A stretch of 20,859 bases of DNA from a virus: positions 1-20,859 of the IMG/VR virus record IMGVR_UViG_3300018018_000035; one strand, given 5' to 3'. Made by a program: the position numbers and the translations under genes. The notes under the pieces are model-generated. The model made no database searches. It had not been told where the DNA came from and was given only the letters and a program-made list of their open reading frames with translations. Below, piece after piece: positions 5,454 to 17,505 of this stretch. How positions within the stretch are numbered: position 1 is the stretch's first letter; every line of letters begins with the position of its first letter.

Positions 5454-6192
5454 CAAACCGGGGAAAGTCGCCGCTAAAGTCATGGCATTTGTCGGTATAC
5501 CTGTCCTGATTTTGGGAGCATTCTTCCTTGGAAGATTACTTTCATCGAAATCGGATTCTGTGTCTACAACCACAGTTCCATCTCATTCCGATTCCGCACA
5601 AACTGTCCAGCTCATTAAGGAGAATAATGAACTCAAAGATAAATTGACTGCGATGGAGAAATTAACCGGAACCAAAACAGAGGCCCATCCATCATCCGGG
5701 ACGATCGGGAAGCCGCCAGCCAATTTTATGAGGCCGGATACGGTATGGATTCCGGTCCCTGACACGACCTCCAAACCGTCGTCCGGTAGAACACCGATTC
5801 TTGTGCATAAGCAGGATTTTCCCATCGGTATATGGTTCAATAACAGCGGACTTATTGTCAATACTATTAATCCATATCTGCAGGCAATCGATTCACCATA
5901 CTTCAAGCAATACCGATTTCCCAGACAGGAAAATGATTTCACTTTGGCATCGGTTGAAGGTCAGACAACAGAAAATCTCGACGGTCTTATCGTGTATTGG
6001 ATGAAGCCCATTCTGAGATGGGGCGGAATAGATGGCGAGATAGGATATGGTTTTTATAATCGCCTGCATCTGAGTATAAATGCGAAGATCATGATTCTGG
6101 ATCGGGTTGAATTATTGCCTACTCTTCGTGCAACCCGGGATGGGGTTGACGCTGAGGCTAACGTCAAATTTAATCTATGGGGAGGTAAGTGA
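5446..6192 (+). CDS. Membrane-anchored hypothetical protein
   Basis: The 248-residue product starts at an ATG preceded by AAGGAGAT. Residues 12-32 (VMAFVGIPVLILGAFFLGRLL) form a single hydrophobic segment after a short basic N-terminus, so the protein is probably anchored in the inner membrane with the rest outside. Residues about 50-72 form a short coiled coil (LIKENNELKDKLTAMEKL). A Pro/Thr/Ser-rich stretch follows to about 115, then a beta-rich C-terminal domain (120-248). This anchor, coil and globular-domain layout recalls spanins or membrane-tethered phage accessory factors. The C-terminal domain is not recognised and no lysis gene is nearby, so I leave the function open. The stop codon overlaps the next start. 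Confidence 0.75.
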   Translation: MNNKPGKVAAKVMAFVGIPVLILGAFFLGRLLSSKSDSVSTTTVPSHSDSAQTVQLIKENNELKDKLTAMEKLTGTKTEAHPSSGTIGKPPANFMRPDTVWIPVPDTTSKPSSGRTPILVHKQDFPIGIWFNNSGLIVNTINPYLQAIDSPYFKQYRFPRQENDFTLASVEGQTTENLDGLIVYWMKPILRWGGIDGEIGYGFYNRLHLSINAKIMILDRVELLPTLRATRDGVDAEANVKFNLWGGK

Positions 6193-6608
6193 CCGAAGAA
6201 TACGATCGTGATAAGCTTCATGAATCGAATGACGATCTATGGCGGAGGATTATCCGTATACCTTGCGTATGCGAACGCTGCGGGAATGAGGGAGAGGAAA
6301 AGGATTTCGAAGCGGATCATATTGTAACACGTGGTAATTTGAGACTAAGATGGAATTTGTTGAATGGAATATGTTTGTGCATCGGGTGTCATAAATACAA
6401 ACATGAAAGCAGTATAACGGAGATTGAATACCAAGTCTGGTTCAGAAAAACATATCCGGAAAGATGGCGTTATCTGCAGGAACTAAAGAATCAGTTGGCA
6501 GTGGATGTGGATCTTGAAGAGGTAAATAAATATTTGAGGATTCAGCTCATAGAAGCACAAAAAATAAAGAAGATTTTTGAAGGACAAATAACGGGAGAAG
6601 GTCTATGA
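6189..6608 (+). CDS. HNH-type nuclease, NinG/HNH-like, 139 aa
   Basis: The protein has the zinc-ribbon plus HNH layout: C28-x2-C31, then the conserved E-A-D-H at 41-44, an Asn at 56 or 60, and C64-x2-C67-H68 with H72. The D-H pair and the downstream Asn and His are what an HNH active site requires. The surrounding sequence (DHIVTRGNLRLRWNLLNGIC) resembles phage HNH nucleases such as those of the NinG/Rap type. Translation must start at the GTG at 6189, which overlaps the previous stop. GGAGG lies only three bases upstream, an unusually tight spacing. Phage HNH proteins near head genes often assist the terminase, which is a plausible but unproven role here. Unlike the second HNH gene of this window it is collinear with its neighbours, so it does not look like a parasite. 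Confidence 0.8.
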   Translation: MTEEYDRDKLHESNDDLWRRIIRIPCVCERCGNEGEEKDFEADHIVTRGNLRLRWNLLNGICLCIGCHKYKHESSITEIEYQVWFRKTYPERWRYLQELKNQLAVDVDLEEVNKYLRIQLIEAQKIKKIFEGQITGEGL

Positions 6609-8327: not shown

Positions 8328-8500
8328 TGGATAATACAATAAGAGTATATCCTCCACAAAATTATGAATCATCATTTCAGTATGTCGATGTCGAGAAAGG
8401 GCAGCAGGTAAGATGGCTGTATTGCCGTAATGGAGATAAAAAGATAATCTACGGTTATGCGATACTCAAGAAGAAACCGCGAAAGGTGAAAAGAGTTTAA
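8327..8500 (+). CDS. Small basic hypothetical protein, 57 aa
   Basis: The reading frame runs from ATG at 8327 (MDNTIRVYPPQNYE...) to TAA at 8498-8500 and exactly fills the gap between its neighbours. It shares one base with the previous stop and one with the next ATG (TAATG). The product looks like a small beta-barrel: alternating hydrophobics (VRWLYCRNGDKKIIYGYAIL) and a basic tail (KKKPRKVKRV). It may bind nucleic acid, but that is inference from charge only. Both overlaps support expression by translational coupling. Confidence 0.55.
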   Translation: MDNTIRVYPPQNYESSFQYVDVEKGQQVRWLYCRNGDKKIIYGYAILKKKPRKVKRV

Positions 8501-11500
8501 TGCAATGTGATACAAAGAAATATTTTGCTGGGCCGGTGCAAGGTGATACATTATCACGCGGAATTGAACTCTCGACAAAACAGACAGATAGTTCCATCCC
8601 ATTGATACTCAAGAGTCATGAAGTCGGATTCATAAATGGAAGACCGTATTTACTTGTAGATAAAACAATAGATACTTTTCTCGGTTCGGCGCCATCCAGA
8701 GAACACGGGAATGTATATTTTTTCAAGAGTGAGAATGATTGCATTATCGTCAGCGATATACAGGGGACGATTTTGGAAATAGCCGGCAGTTGGTTACAGA
8801 AGGGCGCGAAGACCAATGAGGGTCCGGTGATCGAGTGCGGTGATCAAGTGGCGCTGGTTGATACTGAGTCAGGAAGAAAAGTTTTTCGGAAAAGCCAATT
8901 GCGGCCGGTCAATGATTATCAACGAGAAGCACAGAAAATTGGGGAAGCTACAGATTTCTTTATAACATTGCGGAAACGCCTTGAACCAAACACGCAAGAG
9001 CCTATCACATCGAAAGTGAAAATCGGATTCAGTGGGGGAAGATTCAAGTTAAACCTGAATCCGGAAATACAGCCAGCCGAAGGTACTACGAAACAATTTG
9101 GGCCGAATGATACCCGGAAATTGATGCGGACTCCGGATGGTGCCATGCGCTGGATGAATGCGGATGAGGAAAAGAAGGAGCTGGAACGCCGGCAGCAAAA
9201 GAAGACAGGTGAAGTTCAGAATGAAGGGATTCAAAGACCTGCAGCCCAATTTCGAATCGGTCAAGAAATACCATACAAAGGTGAGAAGGTGCAGGTTATA
9301 AGTTATGCAGAAAACATCGTGGCATTCAAGAAAGAAGATGGGACAACAGGAACTTTGAAAGCAACGGAATACGATCATGATGCAGAAAGTAAAGCCGCTG
9401 CGAAAAAGCAATCAGTCCAAACATCTACAGAAGCCAAAAATAAGCAGCATGGGAAAATGACGGAAATCTATCAGCAGAATGCTCTCGATGAAAAGCGTCG
9501 ACGTCAACAGGAGAGAGCACTTCAATTCGAACCTCATCCTTCGTCAGAAGGGGAAAAATATCGGGAAGAAGTAAACCGGATACATAATGAGCAAATATTG
9601 ACACCGGAATACAAGCAATTCAAAGAACAACTTCCGGCAGGCTGGAATCAGCTGGATGATTTTAATTTTCAAAAGGAAGTAGAGTGGGAGCAGGAAGGCT
9701 GGTTCAAGATACATTTTACAATGAATCGGACCTGGATTCCGGAGAAAAAATCGTATACGGTTTCGTTTAATGACCGACCGATTCATTTGACTTACAAAGG
9801 TGAAATTCAGGAGTTAGTCGACATCGATGGTGATGATATCGTTTTGAAGGCTGGGAATAATGAAGTACGGATCAATCAGTACGATCTTGATAAGTATAGA
9901 GGAACTTTACTCCTGGATGAAGACGGGAATGCGACGGTCCAGAAAGGTGAGAAAGAACTTGGTGAACTCAGTATGGAAGAAGGCATTACCCAAGCAGATC
10001 TCCTGAAACCAGGGACAATCAAGATTATCAATGACGAGGTATGGAAAAGGATAGAGCCGGCCGCCGGTGCGCGATATATCGATGTTCGTCTTGGTAAGGT
10101 TGCTACAGGTATTACCGTATACAAGCATGGTCATGAAATTGGTGTAATAGATGGTAATCGGAGGACTAATATAGTCCTGAATAAGAACACACGCCGTAAT
10201 GTCGATAGTGATAAATTGGACGATGAATCGAAGAAGATGAGGCGATTAGTTGTTGGACTTACTGGCAGATTAAGAGAAGAACAAATTAAGAATATAGATG
10301 TCGATACAGCGAAAGCCAGAATCGAGGTAGGGAAAGAGAAAATAGGACGGAAACCGATCGATGCTGGAATGTACAAAGACGTCTTTGATTCCTTTATCAA
10401 TGACGGGGGGGAAGGGATCGATGAACAACTTGCAGAGGCTTATGGTCGGCCGGAATGGAAGGCAACAATTCAATCTCTGGCAGAGAGAATGAAGGTGGCA
10501 GATAATCAGCAGGGCCGGGAGATCGATGCATTCAATGCTTTGTCGAAGAGCGGAATTCTGAAAGAAAAACCTACAAACAGAACAACATCCGAACATATAG
10601 ATGCAGCTGAAGATTTTCTACGACAGCACCGAAACAATTATCTCCGCGATAAGCTTAGAACAAAGATTGGTGAAGCGCGTACAAGCGGAACCCAGGGTAA
10701 GTTTGAATGGGGGGAGACATCGGAGATTCCGGAAAATGCTAAAGCTGTTGTCGAAGAGCCGTTCAAGATTCGAGATAGTAGCGGAAATAGTTACCACGTG
10801 GTATATGCTTTTGTGCCTATGGACTCGGTAGTTGAATCCCATAATATCGAAGGTCAGGAGAATGCAGAACATCCCAAGGAACTGCAGGCAAGAAAAAGAA
10901 GTGACGTGCACGCCATAACCCAAATGCAGAAGATTGCGGCCGATATCAATGACGATGTGGTTACGGACAATGCCGATGCTACCCGTGGTGCACCGGTGGC
11001 CTTTGCCCGTGATGGGAAAGTCTATATCATCCAGGGGAACGGCCGCAGCGCAGGCATTAAAGGTACAAAAGGCGAACAACGAGAGAAATATTTCGGTATG
11101 ATACTCGATAAGGCGAAAAAACTTGGTGTATCAACTGATAAACTGACTGAAAACGACATGTTAGTCCGGATATTGACGCCGATGCATACTTATGAAGATG
11201 CACGCCGGCTGTCGGCATTCGGTCAGAAGAGTGCAGCTCTCCCACAGACCGAGGTCGAAGAAGCCCGGGCATTCCAGAATGCACAACGTATACCATATGA
11301 TTTCCGTATCAATCTTGAAGGGATAGGGAATAGATCGATCGATGAGAATAATGTTGGAACGTTCATCAGGAACAATCCGCAACTCTATCAGGAGATATTG
11401 AAAGATTCCGGATTAGCCCGGGAAGCCGTTGAGAGCCATCCATCGGTACAAACAAAACTTGTAAATACTGCAATGCTGGCCCAACTCAAGAGTGATTTCA

Positions 11501-12540
11501 TCGAGGATATCAGCAGTCGCGATGACAAGACACATCGTCTTGTACAGCAGCTGGCGCCGGCTCTGGCAGACAACCAGAGAGCCGTGGCCGAAGGCCAAGT
11601 ACCCAACTATGCAGATCTTCAATCCTTACTCGGCCGTGTTGTAAAATCTTACGATAATCTCGGTGCTGGAACAAAGTCATTGATGAATATCCGGGCCGGT
11701 AATGTGGAATTCCTGAATGATGATCCGCAGGCAATGAATCCCGATACACTTATCCATCGAATGAGACAAGAAGATCTGCTATCCACAGAGAAGAAAGAAG
11801 AGAATCTTTTCCGGGATCCGCTGACAGTTGTTGGGATGATAGCATATCACCAGGCAATGAATCCACGGATTGGAGAGGATAACCGGAATAAATCATTAAA
11901 CCAATTCGCATTGAAGATACGCAGGTTCTCGGATGCGCTGAAAACACTTAATCAAAATCAGAATGATATTTTCGGGGCTCTCAAAACAGATGAACAAAAG
12001 AAAGCAGAACAGTATCGGGATGTTGTGGCAATTGCTGAACGGACCCTATTGGAGAATAAACCTTATCGGGCCGGAGAGGAACAATTGACAGCCGATGAGC
12101 AAATAGCGGCAAAGGAACAATTTGGTGCATTCGATGTATATCGTAAAATGGAAAAAATTGCAAGACAGTATGGTTTCGAATTAGCGAATGAAAAAGGCGT
12201 ATTGAAGAAAAGTATTCGTCGATTGATAAGATTTTTTGGCGATCGGGATAAAAAGGCGATCGCCCTGTTTCGGAAATCAATGGAGAAACCAACGGCGGGT
12301 GAACTTTCAGCTATGGTCGAGGAAGCAGCCGAACAGACCGATACCCACCCCACCGAAGAACAGAAGAAAGCCGGCAATTACCAAAAAGGACATGTTCGAT
12401 TATATGGCCTTGATATCACTATTGAAAATCCGAAGGGGTCATTCCGCAGTGGCGTAAGCAAACAAGGCAAGAAGTGGGAAACTGAATTGAAACATCACTA
12501 TGGCTACATAACGCGTGTGAGAAAAACAAAGGATGAATAA
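8500..12540 (+). CDS. Polyvalent-type giant protein, N-terminal part: ddrB-like ParB domain and first half of an inorganic-pyrophosphatase-like domain
   Basis: This 1346-residue protein is assembled from many small domains. Residues 1-640 contain several short beta-barrel-like units (for example IGQEIPYKGEKVQVISYAEN near 260), separated by charged helical linkers. Residues about 740-875 match the ddrB-like ParB fold: VPMDSVVESHN, then LQARKRSDVHAITQMQKIA from 795, then RGAPVAFARDG and GNGRSAGI around 846-853. A helical region follows to about 1150. Residues 1285-1346 (KKAGNYQKGHVRLYGLDITI, ENPKGSFRSG, HHYGYITR) are the first half of the pyrophosphatase-like domain found in phage polyvalent proteins. 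The protein stops six residues after ITRV, before the metal-binding Asp motif, which is encoded past the HNH gene at 13153. Such proteins are thought to be injected with phage DNA and to counter host defences. The ATG overlaps the previous stop. Confidence 0.85.
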   Translation: MQCDTKKYFAGPVQGDTLSRGIELSTKQTDSSIPLILKSHEVGFINGRPYLLVDKTIDTFLGSAPSREHGNVYFFKSENDCIIVSDIQGTILEIAGSWLQKGAKTNEGPVIECGDQVALVDTESGRKVFRKSQLRPVNDYQREAQKIGEATDFFITLRKRLEPNTQEPITSKVKIGFSGGRFKLNLNPEIQPAEGTTKQFGPNDTRKLMRTPDGAMRWMNADEEKKELERRQQKKTGEVQNEGIQRPAAQFRIGQEIPYKGEKVQVISYAENIVAFKKEDGTTGTLKATEYDHDAESKAAAKKQSVQTSTEAKNKQHGKMTEIYQQNALDEKRRRQQERALQFEPHPSSEGEKYREEVNRIHNEQILTPEYKQFKEQLPAGWNQLDDFNFQKEVEWEQEGWFKIHFTMNRTWIPEKKSYTVSFNDRPIHLTYKGEIQELVDIDGDDIVLKAGNNEVRINQYDLDKYRGTLLLDEDGNATVQKGEKELGELSMEEGITQADLLKPGTIKIINDEVWKRIEPAAGARYIDVRLGKVATGITVYKHGHEIGVIDGNRRTNIVLNKNTRRNVDSDKLDDESKKMRRLVVGLTGRLREEQIKNIDVDTAKARIEVGKEKIGRKPIDAGMYKDVFDSFINDGGEGIDEQLAEAYGRPEWKATIQSLAERMKVADNQQGREIDAFNALSKSGILKEKPTNRTTSEHIDAAEDFLRQHRNNYLRDKLRTKIGEARTSGTQGKFEWGETSEIPENAKAVVEEPFKIRDSSGNSYHVVYAFVPMDSVVESHNIEGQENAEHPKELQARKRSDVHAITQMQKIAADINDDVVTDNADATRGAPVAFARDGKVYIIQGNGRSAGIKGTKGEQREKYFGMILDKAKKLGVSTDKLTENDMLVRILTPMHTYEDARRLSAFGQKSAALPQTEVEEARAFQNAQRIPYDFRINLEGIGNRSIDENNVGTFIRNNPQLYQEILKDSGLAREAVESHPSVQTKLVNTAMLAQLKSDFIEDISSRDDKTHRLVQQLAPALADNQRAVAEGQVPNYADLQSLLGRVVKSYDNLGAGTKSLMNIRAGNVEFLNDDPQAMNPDTLIHRMRQEDLLSTEKKEENLFRDPLTVVGMIAYHQAMNPRIGEDNRNKSLNQFALKIRRFSDALKTLNQNQNDIFGALKTDEQKKAEQYRDVVAIAERTLLENKPYRAGEEQLTADEQIAAKEQFGAFDVYRKMEKIARQYGFELANEKGVLKKSIRRLIRFFGDRDKKAIALFRKSMEKPTAGELSAMVEEAAEQTDTHPTEEQKKAGNYQKGHVRLYGLDITIENPKGSFRSGVSKQGKKWETELKHHYGYITRVRKTKDE

Positions 12541-12553
12541 GATAATGCTATTT

Positions 12554-13078
12554 CTAAATCAAATATTTTTGTTTGATGAGATATTTTCGGACACAAGGAG
12601 GTGTGACGTCAAGTTGTTTGGCAATTTGAGCGATCGGGATTCCTTGCTTAAAAAGTTTTACACCAGTTTTTGTGTCCCATTTATATTTTCCCCAGCGGAG
12701 ATTAATTGTGGACAATCCTTTTCGTTTAAACACTTTTATAATAGTACCATAATTGACATTGAAATGTTTTGCAATATATGCAAAGGATTTTCCCTTCTCA
12801 CGAAGTCGAAGGGCTTCATCAAACGACCAAGATCGTCGTTCACCTTCATGAATAATGGACATATGTTTGGATTGAGTAACAATTTCAAGATTGGAAGCTA
12901 TATTATTCAAGCCATTGTGATCTTTATGATGGATAAGTTCATCACATCGAAGGGTTCGTCCAATAATTTTTTCCATGATAACACGATGGGCAAGACGCTG
13001 TTTACCATTTACTCTAATAAGCAAATAAAAAGTATTACCTAATTTACGAATATGTCCACCAAGATTTGGGCGTCCCAT
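12554..13078 (-). CDS. HNH homing endonuclease, antisense, interrupting the polyvalent gene
   Basis: The 174-residue protein is the only convincing leftward gene. It has an I-HmuI-like HNH core: H50-H51-K-D53-H54-N55, then N58-N59 and N63-L-E65-I-V, preceded by 'LAHRVIMEKIIGRTL'. Two helix-turn-helix-like segments follow, at about 86-122 (FDEALRLREKGKSFAYIAKH) and 139-171 (LFKQGIPIAQIAKQLDVTPP), as expected for DNA-recognition modules of homing enzymes. The start has AAGGAT nine bases upstream. It lies between two ORFs that each encode half of one domain, so it looks like a mobile nuclease gene that invaded the polyvalent gene. The space outside its ORF is under 120 bases, which leaves little room for a separate group I intron. 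Confidence 0.88.
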   Translation of the reverse strand: MGRPNLGGHIRKLGNTFYLLIRVNGKQRLAHRVIMEKIIGRTLRCDELIHHKDHNGLNNIASNLEIVTQSKHMSIIHEGERRSWSFDEALRLREKGKSFAYIAKHFNVNYGTIIKVFKRKGLSTINLRWGKYKWDTKTGVKLFKQGIPIAQIAKQLDVTPPCVRKYLIKQKYLI

Positions 13079-13105
13079 TTCAATATATCCTTATTTGATG
13101 ATCGC

Positions 13106-13134
13106 AATGTAATGATTGGTTTCTTTAAAAGCAA
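13106..13134 (-). promoter_or_regulatory. Candidate promoter for the antisense HNH gene
   Basis: Reading leftward, TTGCTT (13134-13129) and TACATT (13111-13106) are separated by 17 bases. Each matches the sigma-70 consensus at four of six positions. The -10 element lies about 28 bases before the HNH start codon, which has its own AAGGAT site. A dedicated promoter would be expected for a gene facing away from every neighbour. The match is weak and unsupported by any other evidence. Confidence 0.3.
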
Positions 13135-13152
13135 ACTGATTAGGTTGATAAT

Positions 13153-15981
13153 ATGAATAAATTGAAAGCAAAAGATGGAGATGCTATCGATGTTTTCATT
13201 GGGGATGATCTTGATAGCATGAATGTGTTCATCGTTGATCAAGTGGATCCCGAAACACGTAAGTATGACGAGTGTAAAGTGATGATCGGCTTTAAAACCT
13301 TCAAAGATGCCAGGGAAGGATACCTTGCCAATTATGAAGAGGGATGGGAAGGTATCGGAAATATCACGAGAATGTCGATCGATGATTTTAAGAACTGGTT
13401 GAAGAACGGGGATACCACAAAAAAGGTGGCAGATGTATTGAAGTCATGGTTCAAGACTCTATTCAAAGGAGGTATGCAGCAAGATTTATTTGGGCAACGG
13501 AACTCTGGATCTACAATCGGCACCACGACGTCTCCATCATCCAGAAAAGCAAATCGAATGCTCGGTGTTAATTGGGGACGGTTCGATACTGAAAGGCCCG
13601 GGCATAAATATATCAGAAGATATCGTGATAAGAACGAGAAATGGATTTATGTTTACAAAAATCCGGAGGGCCATGAATTCGAAGGTGATGAGGAAGGAAA
13701 TCCTATTCCACGACATTATGATTGGAAAGAGGGAGATAAAGTCAATGTCAATGGAACGACGGCCAAAATAAAAAGTATTGGCGACAAGACACTTGTGCTT
13801 GAAGATGAAGACGGGAAATCATTCACGGCAAAGATTGATGATGTAGAAACGCATGATGAGCAGCAAACGCGATTACGGAAGGAAACAGATCAGAGTAAAT
13901 GGAAAAATATTATTGATAAACTGGAAAAAGAGCCAAAATCACTGAAGGAAAAAGTGGAAGGAAGACTGAATGAAAAACAGGAAGGAAAACAATATAGGGA
14001 TGCAGGTGAACGAGTAGGAGGGAGTAAAAAGGAGATTGCAGCCATACGAATATTATCGGCGGGTGATCTTGATAAACTTGACAATGCAACCGCATACAGA
14101 GTAGTGACCAAAGAACGGATACTATCAGACATTGATGCTGAAGCTGAGAAAGCAAATGGGGTTGAAAGCGGAGCTGCATACCTGAAAAAGAAATTACGTG
14201 AAGCGGTGAATTCCCGGCCACCAAATACACCGGAAGACAGGAAAAAATTTGTTGAACTAACACCAAAAATATTCGAGAAGATAGATGCAGCAAAGACAGT
14301 AGAAGAGCTTCAAAACATTAGCAGAAATATGTTTGAAGCTTTTCTGGATTGGGGAACAAGAAAACGAGCAATTCTTTACAAGGACGACAAGAGCGGAGAT
14401 GTTTCAAGGTTGCTCGGTAAGGAATTTCTGAATCTTATTGGACGGAATAGCGATTCAGCGAAGGAACATTGGGTGAATGCAATATTGATGAACTCATTCG
14501 ACAAAGAAACATCGGATAAAGAGTATAAACAACATGTAGAAAGTAGAAAAAATACCATCGAAATAAATAAAAAACGGATGGATGAATATACTCCAGAGCA
14601 ATGGGAAAATTATTTTAAGTCTGATCCCGTAACATCAATGGTATTCACACGAAAACAATTAGCCGATGAAAAGAAAAACAATCCAGAAAAATATCAGCAG
14701 GCCATTGAAGATTATAAGAAACGAGAATATAAAAGTAATGAGCAAAGGAATGAAGCTTTAACCTATGAAAAATGGTTAGAGAAACGACCGCAATATAAGC
14801 CGCGTGAAGCCGACTGGACATGGGCAGACGAGAAGGATAAAAAAGCAATTGATAAACGGAAAGCAGAATTGAAGATACATGACAATCCACCACTTGCTTT
14901 TATAAAGCGAACAAATGGAAGAGAAGTAAAGGATTCAGACATCACAGTAGATGCAATCAAAAATAAATATGGATTTAAAAGTGTTCAATTCGGGCATTAT
15001 GTAAAAGATGTTGAAGCCAAAGAGCATGTAAGACATTTTATTGAAAGTATGAACGATCTTGAGGATGCAATTGGAATCGACATTAAAAAAATGAATCAAC
15101 TATCAGGATTGAGTATAGCATTCGGAGCAAGAGGATCGGCTGGATCCTTAGCACATTATGAACCGATGGCGAAAATAATCAATTTAACAAAAACAAATGG
15201 CGATGGTACAATAGCGCATGAGATATTCCACAATTTCGATCATTTATTAGGTGGCATGAAAGAAGGAACAACCAAGGAGAAAGTATATTTATCACAACAA
15301 GGGAAAGAGAATCAAAGTAAGACTTCTCAGGCAATGCAGGAAGTATTGGAAGTAATAAAGAAAGGTGATAATTCGGTTAAGGTTGAATTCAAACCGAACG
15401 AACATCAGTATACCTATAAAAGCATTCAACAAAACTGTGAAAATAAAGGATATGAATTTGCAAAACAGGAATTACTACGATATGCTAAAGACCCAAATAA
15501 TTTAGGCGGCGCAGAAGACTATTTTAAATACCTTGCAACATTATCGAAAAAGCCAATAGAGATTTCTTTCCCAAGCGGGAATTCTAAATACTATGATGGA
15601 GCTAAAAGTTTTAAGAGTACCTATTGGCAAAGTGATGTAGAATTATTCGCACGAGCGGCGGAAACATATGTTCAAGATAAACTTGCAGGCAATGACATGT
15701 ATAACAATTATCTTGTTGCCGGGAACAGTATTCAGCAACCAGACAAAAAGTATGATTCAACTACGCTTCAACTTACTTATCCCCAGGGAGAGGAAAGAGT
15801 GAAGATCAACGAAGCATTTGATAAACTTATACAGGCAGCAAAAGAAGAATTGAACATAGGCATAGCAAAGAAGAAAGAGGGAAAGCGGATTTCGAGTGAA
15901 ATCCAAATGCAGAAAAGTCTCTATAATCCAAATATGTTCAAAATAGATTTTCATTTATTAAGTAATTTCATTGATTCATGA
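13153..15981 (+). CDS. Polyvalent-type giant protein, C-terminal part: second half of the pyrophosphatase-like domain and LPD1 zincin-like domain
   Basis: Residues 8-14 (D-G-D-A-I-D-V) match the inorganic pyrophosphatase signature apart from Ala at the usual Pro/Glu position. The remaining domain follows to about residue 90 (FIVDQVDPETRKYDECKVMI, YLANYEEGWEGIGNITRMSI, FKNWLKNGDT), so this ORF completes the domain begun by 8500-12540. A barrel-like unit (about 195-235) and long helical linkers follow. Residues about 610-700 resemble the LPD1 domain of polyvalent proteins: YGFKSVQFGHYVKD, SGLSIAFGARGSAGSLAHYE, then H689-E-I-F-H693-N-F-D-H697, a zinc-peptidase-like HExxH plus a third His. Residues to about 920 are an unrecognised helical tail. 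The upstream TAGG is a weak ribosome site, so independent translation may be poor, or it may use the later ATG at 13219. Confidence 0.85.
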   Translation: MNKLKAKDGDAIDVFIGDDLDSMNVFIVDQVDPETRKYDECKVMIGFKTFKDAREGYLANYEEGWEGIGNITRMSIDDFKNWLKNGDTTKKVADVLKSWFKTLFKGGMQQDLFGQRNSGSTIGTTTSPSSRKANRMLGVNWGRFDTERPGHKYIRRYRDKNEKWIYVYKNPEGHEFEGDEEGNPIPRHYDWKEGDKVNVNGTTAKIKSIGDKTLVLEDEDGKSFTAKIDDVETHDEQQTRLRKETDQSKWKNIIDKLEKEPKSLKEKVEGRLNEKQEGKQYRDAGERVGGSKKEIAAIRILSAGDLDKLDNATAYRVVTKERILSDIDAEAEKANGVESGAAYLKKKLREAVNSRPPNTPEDRKKFVELTPKIFEKIDAAKTVEELQNISRNMFEAFLDWGTRKRAILYKDDKSGDVSRLLGKEFLNLIGRNSDSAKEHWVNAILMNSFDKETSDKEYKQHVESRKNTIEINKKRMDEYTPEQWENYFKSDPVTSMVFTRKQLADEKKNNPEKYQQAIEDYKKREYKSNEQRNEALTYEKWLEKRPQYKPREADWTWADEKDKKAIDKRKAELKIHDNPPLAFIKRTNGREVKDSDITVDAIKNKYGFKSVQFGHYVKDVEAKEHVRHFIESMNDLEDAIGIDIKKMNQLSGLSIAFGARGSAGSLAHYEPMAKIINLTKTNGDGTIAHEIFHNFDHLLGGMKEGTTKEKVYLSQQGKENQSKTSQAMQEVLEVIKKGDNSVKVEFKPNEHQYTYKSIQQNCENKGYEFAKQELLRYAKDPNNLGGAEDYFKYLATLSKKPIEISFPSGNSKYYDGAKSFKSTYWQSDVELFARAAETYVQDKLAGNDMYNNYLVAGNSIQQPDKKYDSTTLQLTYPQGEERVKINEAFDKLIQAAKEELNIGIAKKKEGKRISSEIQMQKSLYNPNMFKIDFHLLSNFIDS

Positions 15982-16026: not shown

Positions 16027-17505
16027 ATGCAACCAATTCAAGGAGCACCCGCCGAATTAAATAGTATGTTGAAAGAGGTCTATGAGTCAGCACTTAAGAC
16101 CTACGATGGAGATGAAGAAATGGCTTCAAAGACTGCTTATTCCGCAGCCGAAAAAGCCGGTTGGTATAAAGGGAAGGATGATAAATGGCAAAAGAGAAAG
16201 AAAGTGGAAAAGAGTATTACAAATGTCAGTTTTGAAAAATTAGGATTCGGGATCGATGAATTAAACAAGTCAATTCATAAGCGTGAGGATGTGAATCCAC
16301 AACGCGGAAAAGAAGAATATGGAGACGTTGAATTCGCCGATGAAAGGAATAAAAAATATCCGATCAATGACGAAGGACATATTCGTGCTGCATGGAATTA
16401 CATCAATAAGGAAAAAAATGCAGCCGAGTATCCAGCAGAAGACGTTGCCAAGATCAAAGCGAAAATAATTGCAGCATGGAAAAAGAAAATCGACAAAGCC
16501 GGACCGCCAAGCGCCATACGCAAATCATTTTTATTCAATCTATTTAAGAGTAAAAAACATGAAGTAATTATACCAAAGATCGGTGATAAGATGATGATGG
16601 ATGGGAAAGAGTATATCTTCCTTGAATCTACTCCAGGTGAACCTAAATGGCATAGTCCGGAGGAAGTGGATAACCTCGTGGAGAAATCTGAAAATATCGA
16701 TCCACTCTCCCTGTCAATAACACAAAAAATCATCGAAGAGAAGAAAAAAGAAAAGGAAGATCACAAACAATCATCGGATCCATCTGACGATCCTTCAATG
16801 GAAATAAAAGAGCCATGGCAAATGACGAGAGAGGAGTTCGAAGAAGCGAAAAATAATGGTGAAGATGTCAGCGGATGGAATAATTCGAACGATAGAAGTC
16901 TTTATGAGGATTTGATTAAACGAGTTGATTTTCTTGAAAAGGAAGAAACAGGCGGACGTAGAGAGCGGGCCAAAATACTGAGAGATGCGGCCCAAGCTAT
17001 TATTGATATATGGGATGAAAAACATGATCATCAATCGCAAATTAAACAGGCGATCTCCGAAGGAAAGAATGTACCAGCCGATGTGTTGAATGATTATAAA
17101 GACACCATCAAGAAGGATATTAACACGCCGAAGGTTATTGCGAAATCGATGTCCGCAGAAGGAGATAACACAAACTCCAACATAGAATCATCGACCGGCA
17201 ATTGGGAGAAGGGCGAAAAACGGTCATTCGCATTCGATCCGAATTCGACTGAGAATGAAGGCCGTTTCAGACTATTGCCTCCGGATGCAATTCAGAAAGA
17301 TTCTTACTTCCGGACAAAATCAAAAACTGATGGGATATCATTTGTCAAAGGGAAACTTATCGGAAGTGATAAAATAGTATACCAGGCGATTCGATTCGAC
17401 AAAAACATTATTCCCGAAGATGAAGCTGCAAAATGGTGGGAGAAGAACAAGTCGAAATTCAAACCAGGCTGGGATGTTATAACAAAGCCAGAAGATCAAA
17501 AATAG
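16027..17505 (+). CDS. Polyvalent-associated protein with ChaB-like and DUF6582-like segments
   Basis: The 492-residue protein starts at an ATG nine bases after GGAGGAGA. Residues about 12-55 resemble a ChaB-like fold (MLKEVYESALKTY, MASKTAYSAAEKAGWYKG). Residues about 98-160 resemble the DUF6582 segment of phage proteins (FADERNKKYPINDEGHIRAA, then AEYPAEDVAKIKAKIIAAWK). Near residue 338 is 'HDHQSQIKQAISEGKNVPAD', a Gly-Lys-x-Val-Pro motif that recurs in polyvalent proteins. The last 110 residues (GRFRLLPPDAIQKDSYFRTK, GISFVKGKLIGSDKIVYQAI, AAKWWEKNKSKF) recall a small domain of phage head proteins. Domain names are from memory. It is probably co-expressed and perhaps co-packaged with the split giant protein, and it is the last gene before a strong terminator. 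Confidence 0.75.
   Translation: MQPIQGAPAELNSMLKEVYESALKTYDGDEEMASKTAYSAAEKAGWYKGKDDKWQKRKKVEKSITNVSFEKLGFGIDELNKSIHKREDVNPQRGKEEYGDVEFADERNKKYPINDEGHIRAAWNYINKEKNAAEYPAEDVAKIKAKIIAAWKKKIDKAGPPSAIRKSFLFNLFKSKKHEVIIPKIGDKMMMDGKEYIFLESTPGEPKWHSPEEVDNLVEKSENIDPLSLSITQKIIEEKKKEKEDHKQSSDPSDDPSMEIKEPWQMTREEFEEAKNNGEDVSGWNNSNDRSLYEDLIKRVDFLEKEETGGRRERAKILRDAAQAIIDIWDEKHDHQSQIKQAISEGKNVPADVLNDYKDTIKKDINTPKVIAKSMSAEGDNTNSNIESSTGNWEKGEKRSFAFDPNSTENEGRFRLLPPDAIQKDSYFRTKSKTDGISFVKGKLIGSDKIVYQAIRFDKNIIPEDEAAKWWEKNKSKFKPGWDVITKPEDQK

Follow-up and report, generated by a model that had tools for sequence, protein, structure and literature searches.

A polyvalent phage gene is split within its InPase domain

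We analysed a 20,859-base virus record over its full length, referred to here as the window. According to Pfam, it contains portal-like and other phage genes. From the ORF list and the Pfam and PHROG matches, two plus-strand ORFs sharing reading frame 1 were identified as the pieces of a giant polyvalent gene: an N-terminal piece of 1346 aa, p1 (8500–12540), and a C-terminal piece of 942 aa, p2 (13153–15981). The p1 protein has a ddrB-like ParB domain (residues 761–891) and ends in the first part of an InPase domain; p2 contains the remaining InPase part and an LPD1 domain (residues 821–899). A DUF6582 gene (16027–17505; PF20223, 7.7e-27) adjoins the polyvalent gene, and L090, an intact relative, also matches this DUF6582 gene weakly.

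The two InPase parts are complementary. The first (12355–12522, plus strand; p1 residues 1286–1341) matched positions 1–56 of the 135-position PF18823 profile (3.9e-20, 72.5 bits), and the second (13159–13404, plus strand; p2 residues 3–84), which includes the Asp triad D-G-D-A-I-D, matched positions 54–135 (1.1e-26, 93.7 bits). Together, the halves cover the full profile, including its ENPKGS.R, YGY and D.D..D motifs. PHROG families were broken at the same point, as in phrog_10089 (941|943). The InPase split far exceeds what is expected by chance. An earlier note on this DNA had described a pyrophosphatase-like domain divided between two frame-1 ORFs, and its ORFs, coordinates and shared frame all proved correct.

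Alignment with ten intact domains from phages (Leptospira LE1, Cellulophaga, Vibrio, Rhizobium, Bacteroides and others) placed the junction between V1340 of p1 and K5 of p2, with a joined sequence of YGYITRV|KAKDGDAIDVF or, in longer form, YGYITRV|KAKDGDAIDVFIG. The insertion deduced from this alignment (12520–13164, plus strand) is about 645 nt long, a length divisible by three; it has edges uncertain by ±1–3 codons and contains 23 stops in the host frame (frame 1). Eight homologues share 30 invariant residues, every one of which is retained across the two halves. The p2 ATG lies directly at the junction and is preceded by a weak AGG as its only Shine-Dalgarno-like sequence, whereas most other genes of the window have strong purine-rich sites.

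An antisense HNH endonuclease gene occupies the insert

The ORF list, Pfam, PHROG and alignment identified a minus-strand HNH_3 endonuclease gene of 174 aa (12554–13078) within the insert. As the earlier note had proposed, this gene is all that the gap holds, about 34 and 86 nt lying outside its ORF, and its position just upstream of the Asp triad was borne out by Pfam, PHROG and the junction alignment. The catalytic motif, HR..ME..IGR....E.IHHKD...N...NL, is intact in the alignment, and the C-terminal region contains helix-turn-helix segments (HTH_7/HTH_23 in Pfam). The gene thus has the features of a free-standing HNH homing endonuclease, namely an HNH motif with a DNA-binding domain and a location that is empty in relatives (121 of 121 intact domains). 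A ribosome-binding-like sequence, AAGGA (13088–13092, minus strand), precedes the HNH ATG.

On the plus strand, the frame in codon register with the antisense HNH gene is open from 12521 to 13039 and ends at a stop at 13040–13042; this is frame 2. A 169-aa ORF antisense to the HNH gene starts at an ATG that overlaps the p1 stop (ATGAATAA, 12533–12540). The occurrence of ATGAATAA at both 12533 and 13153 was considered as a target-site duplication and rejected as the boundary because the stop persists after excision. The start of the insert (12523–12537, plus strand) forms a short imperfect repeat with the 3′ flank just past the insertion site (AAAGCAAAAGATGGA; 13165–13179, plus strand). The two copies are identical at 12 of 15 positions, a match reached by random gene segments in 0.9% of trials (p about 0.009). 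A promoter scan yielded matches above those of shuffled sequences, from which no interpretation was drawn because the region is AT-rich. A second HNH gene (PF01844), sense-oriented, occurs in the structural gene cluster of the window at 6189–6608.

Neither an intron nor an intein was detected in the insert. Rfam RNA families gave no match at the gathering score and no intron even at E values up to 10, and the folding of the insert RNA was ordinary (z −1.4 versus shuffles), which argues against a group I or group II intron. Pfam found no Hint domain, and the residues past the junction, about 6 in p1 and 4 in p2, are too few for the halves of a split intein; an intein, whole or split, was therefore also rejected. 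The RNA-structure search suggested in the earlier note thus revealed no intron, while the suggested alignment with uninterrupted homologues located the junction to within the codons given above.

The InPase domain is uninterrupted in relatives

In the retrieved loci, the second half of the InPase domain was contiguous with the first in all 121 distinct homologous domains, none of which was closer to the window than about 60% protein identity. Eighty of the loci contributing to this set had been ranked solely on the second half, so that in this portion split copies were at no disadvantage. Homologues consistently encoded as two proteins, the finding that would have made the arrangement unremarkable according to the earlier note, were thus not encountered among these domains. 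Judged from these sequences, the split in the window is a departure from the norm among relatives.

We also examined a structural model of one homologue, L012 (pLDDT 91), derived from an alignment of sequences from the retrieved loci only. In this model, the junction (residues 70|71) falls in a loop between strands 63–67 and 78–82, before the Asp triad. The best PDB matches of the model were inorganic pyrophosphatases. In PDB entry 9b41 (chain L, residues 635–762), the C-terminus of a phage portal (gp19) matches the InPase profile (A8; 4.8e-47), in line with a virion location.

Single-protein searches of viral contigs yielded no close relatives of p2 or of the window HNH protein, nor did any close relative turn up in which the exact window site was present, whether empty or occupied. 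Consequently, no empty site was close enough for DNA alignment or for dN/dS on the halves.

Related HNH genes are nested antisense in polyvalent genes

In the InPase homologue L085, an antisense HNH homologue lies shortly before the intact InPase domain, and the ORF reads straight through the HNH gene. Wider scans yielded 292 distinct HNH hits. In 33 of these, an ORF in the in-register antisense frame extended at least 300 nt past both HNH ends; by the same criterion, the other two antisense frames gave 6 and 0 hits, and the shifted same-strand frames 8 and 3. Restricted to hits with good coverage and stripped of short GC-rich cases, the nested set comprises 24 elements in 22 loci, all within uninterrupted polyvalent-protein ORFs and in exact codon register. 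Further partial hits of this kind were found in L181, L188, L259 and L333. The polyvalent domains of the hosts include InPase, MuF_C, RadC, ART-PolyVal, LPD38 and helicase. The catalytic motif was intact in every nested HNH sequence aligned, and in L177 the sequence AGAGGA precedes the start of the nested gene. Two giant ORFs contain two antisense in-register HNH genes each: L110 (3869–4324 and 5660–6190) and L255 (514–984 and 1420–1872).

In-register stops on the reverse strand come only from TTA, CTA and TCA codons of the HNH gene. Using GC-matched codon use, we counted 0 such stops versus 68 expected in 28 nested genes, four of them GC-rich, a zero that is partly by construction since an open frame was the criterion for calling a gene nested. 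The non-nested genes had 709 versus 702 expected, a fit likewise partly by construction since the codon use was drawn from that set. Among the low-GC nested cases, P values were 1.7e-4 (L185), 3.9e-4 (L259), 1.6e-3 (L181) and 2.9e-3 (L177); the GC-rich cases L243, L225, L328 and L362 count for little, since in them a reverse frame is likely to be open anyway. Together, the match to the host frame on either side, the fact that almost no such ORFs occur in other frames and the low-GC cases indicate that the nesting is not due to chance. In the nested pairs, the HNH frame was the better conserved, and the signal of amino-acid constraint in the sense frame was confounded by relatedness; our claim is therefore limited to stop avoidance.

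Empty sites, seen when L110 is compared with L188 and L090, and the ART domain of L256, L262 and L332 with L067 and L088, support a real insertion of the nested HNH genes. In L262, the ART-PolyVal match is cut off at profile position 49, immediately ahead of the element. In a weakly supported tree of 107 HNH sequences, the antisense-nested label needed 10 changes, and a single origin of antisense nesting would not be required. The window HNH sequence lies on a long branch and is only loosely related to the nested group; the sequence closest to it is the non-nested one of L097.

The antisense nuclease without an intron to which the earlier note had drawn attention is thus present, and it is not an isolated oddity: related HNH genes lie antisense in many polyvalent genes, most of them unbroken. 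We tentatively propose, at somewhat short of even odds, that a widespread mobile HNH group uses both strands of its DNA, one for the nuclease and the other for a stop-free, in-register peptide that joins the host halves without splicing, and that the window carries a frame-slipped relative.

Interpretation of the split in the window

We favour the reading, to which we assign a probability of roughly 0.7, that an antisense HNH insertion of the homing type has left the polyvalent gene in pieces, and that the inserted gene comes from a wider group in which antisense, in-register nesting with an open host ORF recurs. A free-standing HNH gene would have entered the InPase loop of the giant gene in antisense orientation with no detectable intron or intein accompanying it, and the host gene would since be read as two proteins, p1 and p2. 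The HNH protein may nick or cut uninterrupted alleles in the conserved loop that precedes the Asp triad, with repair from an occupied copy transferring the HNH gene. The p1 and p2 halves, in which every invariant residue is kept, probably still assemble. The window HNH gene may itself descend from a nested form; being out of frame with the host, it leaves the gene broken here. Two open ORFs and the retained invariant residues argue for a gene in pieces; the weak Shine-Dalgarno sequence of p2 counts against it. Taken together, the alignment of invariant residues and the modelled loop position favour either a recent insertion or reassembly of the halves.

The reverse strand of the HNH gene bears on how the gene reached its present state. 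The window HNH gene has 1 reverse-stop codon versus 5.6–7.1 expected (P 0.014 and 0.0096 in two codon tests), and the 645-nt insert contains 2 stops in the in-register frame versus 23 and 16 in the other frames. Owing to the single reverse-stop codon and to the mismatch between its in-register frame (frame 2) and that of the host halves (frame 1), the gene is outside the nested group as defined, and is either a decayed member or an independent antisense insertion. The former would make the insert a decayed dual-coding element, whose lineage keeps the sense strand open in register; the initial insertion would have been read through, and small indels at the edges would have broken the frame later. 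This account, which we regard as possible but on balance doubt, draws on the scarcity of in-register stops, on relatives in polyvalent genes that are arranged exactly so and on an insert length that is a multiple of three, although such a length has a one-in-three chance. It sits poorly with an open frame that differs from that of the host and with the non-nested character of the closest HNH sequence.

An insertion into a dispensable gene could also simply have killed the domain. In such a case, a recent insertion would have inactivated InPase, p1 would work through its other domains and p2 would be poorly translated, if at all. The weak AGG ahead of the p2 ATG would be explained, and loss of one domain may be tolerated in polyvalent proteins, which are multi-domain. 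Nevertheless, the invariant InPase residues are all intact, p2 remains open over 942 aa including LPD1, and its ATG lies right at the junction, so that we consider a dead domain doubtful.

Phages carry HNH genes with other roles, and the window has its second HNH gene; the inserted gene might accordingly be a resident phage nuclease, acting for example in packaging or in the exclusion of rivals, whose position is incidental. We regard this as improbable given that the conserved domain disrupted by the gene was whole in all homologues examined, and that members of its family occupy varied, patchy sites with empty counterparts. The unrecognised splicing element envisaged in the earlier note, by which the insert would be taken out at the RNA or protein level, or bypassed by ribosomes, to give one polypeptide, is compatible with the insert length, with the frame shared by both halves and with the short repeat linking the insert start to the 3′ flank (a feature that the ShiLan element also has and that was judged weak support for an intron; PMC11855218), but is very improbable in view of the negative intron and intein results, the mere 120 nt or so outside the HNH ORF and the 23 in-frame stops.

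Comparison with known systems

The best precedent for the window gene, by analogy, appears to be splitting of the Aeh1 nrdA type. In Aeh1, mobE, a free-standing HNH gene, splits nrdA and the two products form a functional enzyme; in T4, mobA is a free-standing HNH gene that splits gene 60 (PMC2988022). As in these systems, the window has a free-standing HNH gene in a functionally critical region of a coding sequence that is intact in relatives, with no intron. It differs in that the HNH gene is antisense to its host, in that the host is a polyvalent protein and in that functional reassembly of the halves is putative. Intron-encoded HNH endonucleases of the I-HmuI type (group I) likewise combine an HNH motif with a DNA-binding part at a conserved coding site; by contrast, the window has no detected intron core and its nuclease is encoded on the opposite strand. 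With respect to the InPase domain of polyvalent proteins (PF18823; PMC5512222), the window halves together match the whole profile, the difference being their distribution over two proteins in place of the single domain of the relatives.

The usual view is that a selfish gene within a coding sequence either depends on splicing, by introns or inteins, or breaks the host gene. The ShiLan element, described in 2025, revealed a third way, on the same strand, with neither splicing nor a broken gene: a hidden HNH gene lies out of frame in a mycobacteriophage DNA methylase whose own frame stays open (PMC11855218). Its HNH protein, a zinc ribbon plus HNH, is homologous to those of the nested relatives and is 41.6% identical to the nested HNH protein of L184. 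ShiLan and the nested relatives share a mobile HNH insertion with no splicing element and an open host frame, and in ShiLan, as in the window, the start of the insert resembles the 3′ flank (PMC11855218). The nested relatives differ from ShiLan in being antisense, in codon register and in polyvalent genes. The window copy, unlike both, breaks the host ORF.

These comparisons suggest that, in some twenty giant genes, the nested relatives achieve on the opposite strand what ShiLan does on the same strand. If so, a nuclease and an insert in the host protein would be constrained on opposite strands of one stretch of DNA, and segments of about 150 residues in polyvalent proteins, otherwise annotated as orphan domains, would be reverse readings of nucleases. 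The window would then show the consequence of losing the frame, namely a gene split in two. We found no report of the antisense hidden-HNH form in polyvalent genes in the literature searched, which did not extend to bioRxiv preprints, and the novelty of the antisense in-register form is accordingly provisional.

Other antisense or frame-shifted HNH genes

An outcome similar to that in the window was found in L179, in which an antisense HNH gene separates an InPase ORF from a second polyvalent-type ORF. The InPase ORF of L179 and the ORF antisense to its HNH gene overlap (4531/4532), much as the p1 stop overlaps an ATG in the window.

Antisense HNH genes in a shifted frame were also present in long, apparently intein/Hint-like ORFs of L134 (3977–4198), L170 (3362–3577) and L210 (3989–4180), with the motifs EHLVLAGNEF, EHKFLTATGW and EHRFLLYTGEYL, respectively. 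In these possible inteins, the endonuclease would be specified by the opposite strand. HNH genes in the +1 frame occurred in apparent DNA-methyltransferase ORFs of L153 (3866–4183), L220 (3992–4309), L302 (3995–4318), L221 and L237; they follow the motif GWGTALKPA.EI, are ShiLan-like and are grouped with ShiLan in the tree. Finally, the antisense HNH genes of L183, L206, L270, L271 and L293 have long ORFs of the other strand on both sides and may represent further split genes.
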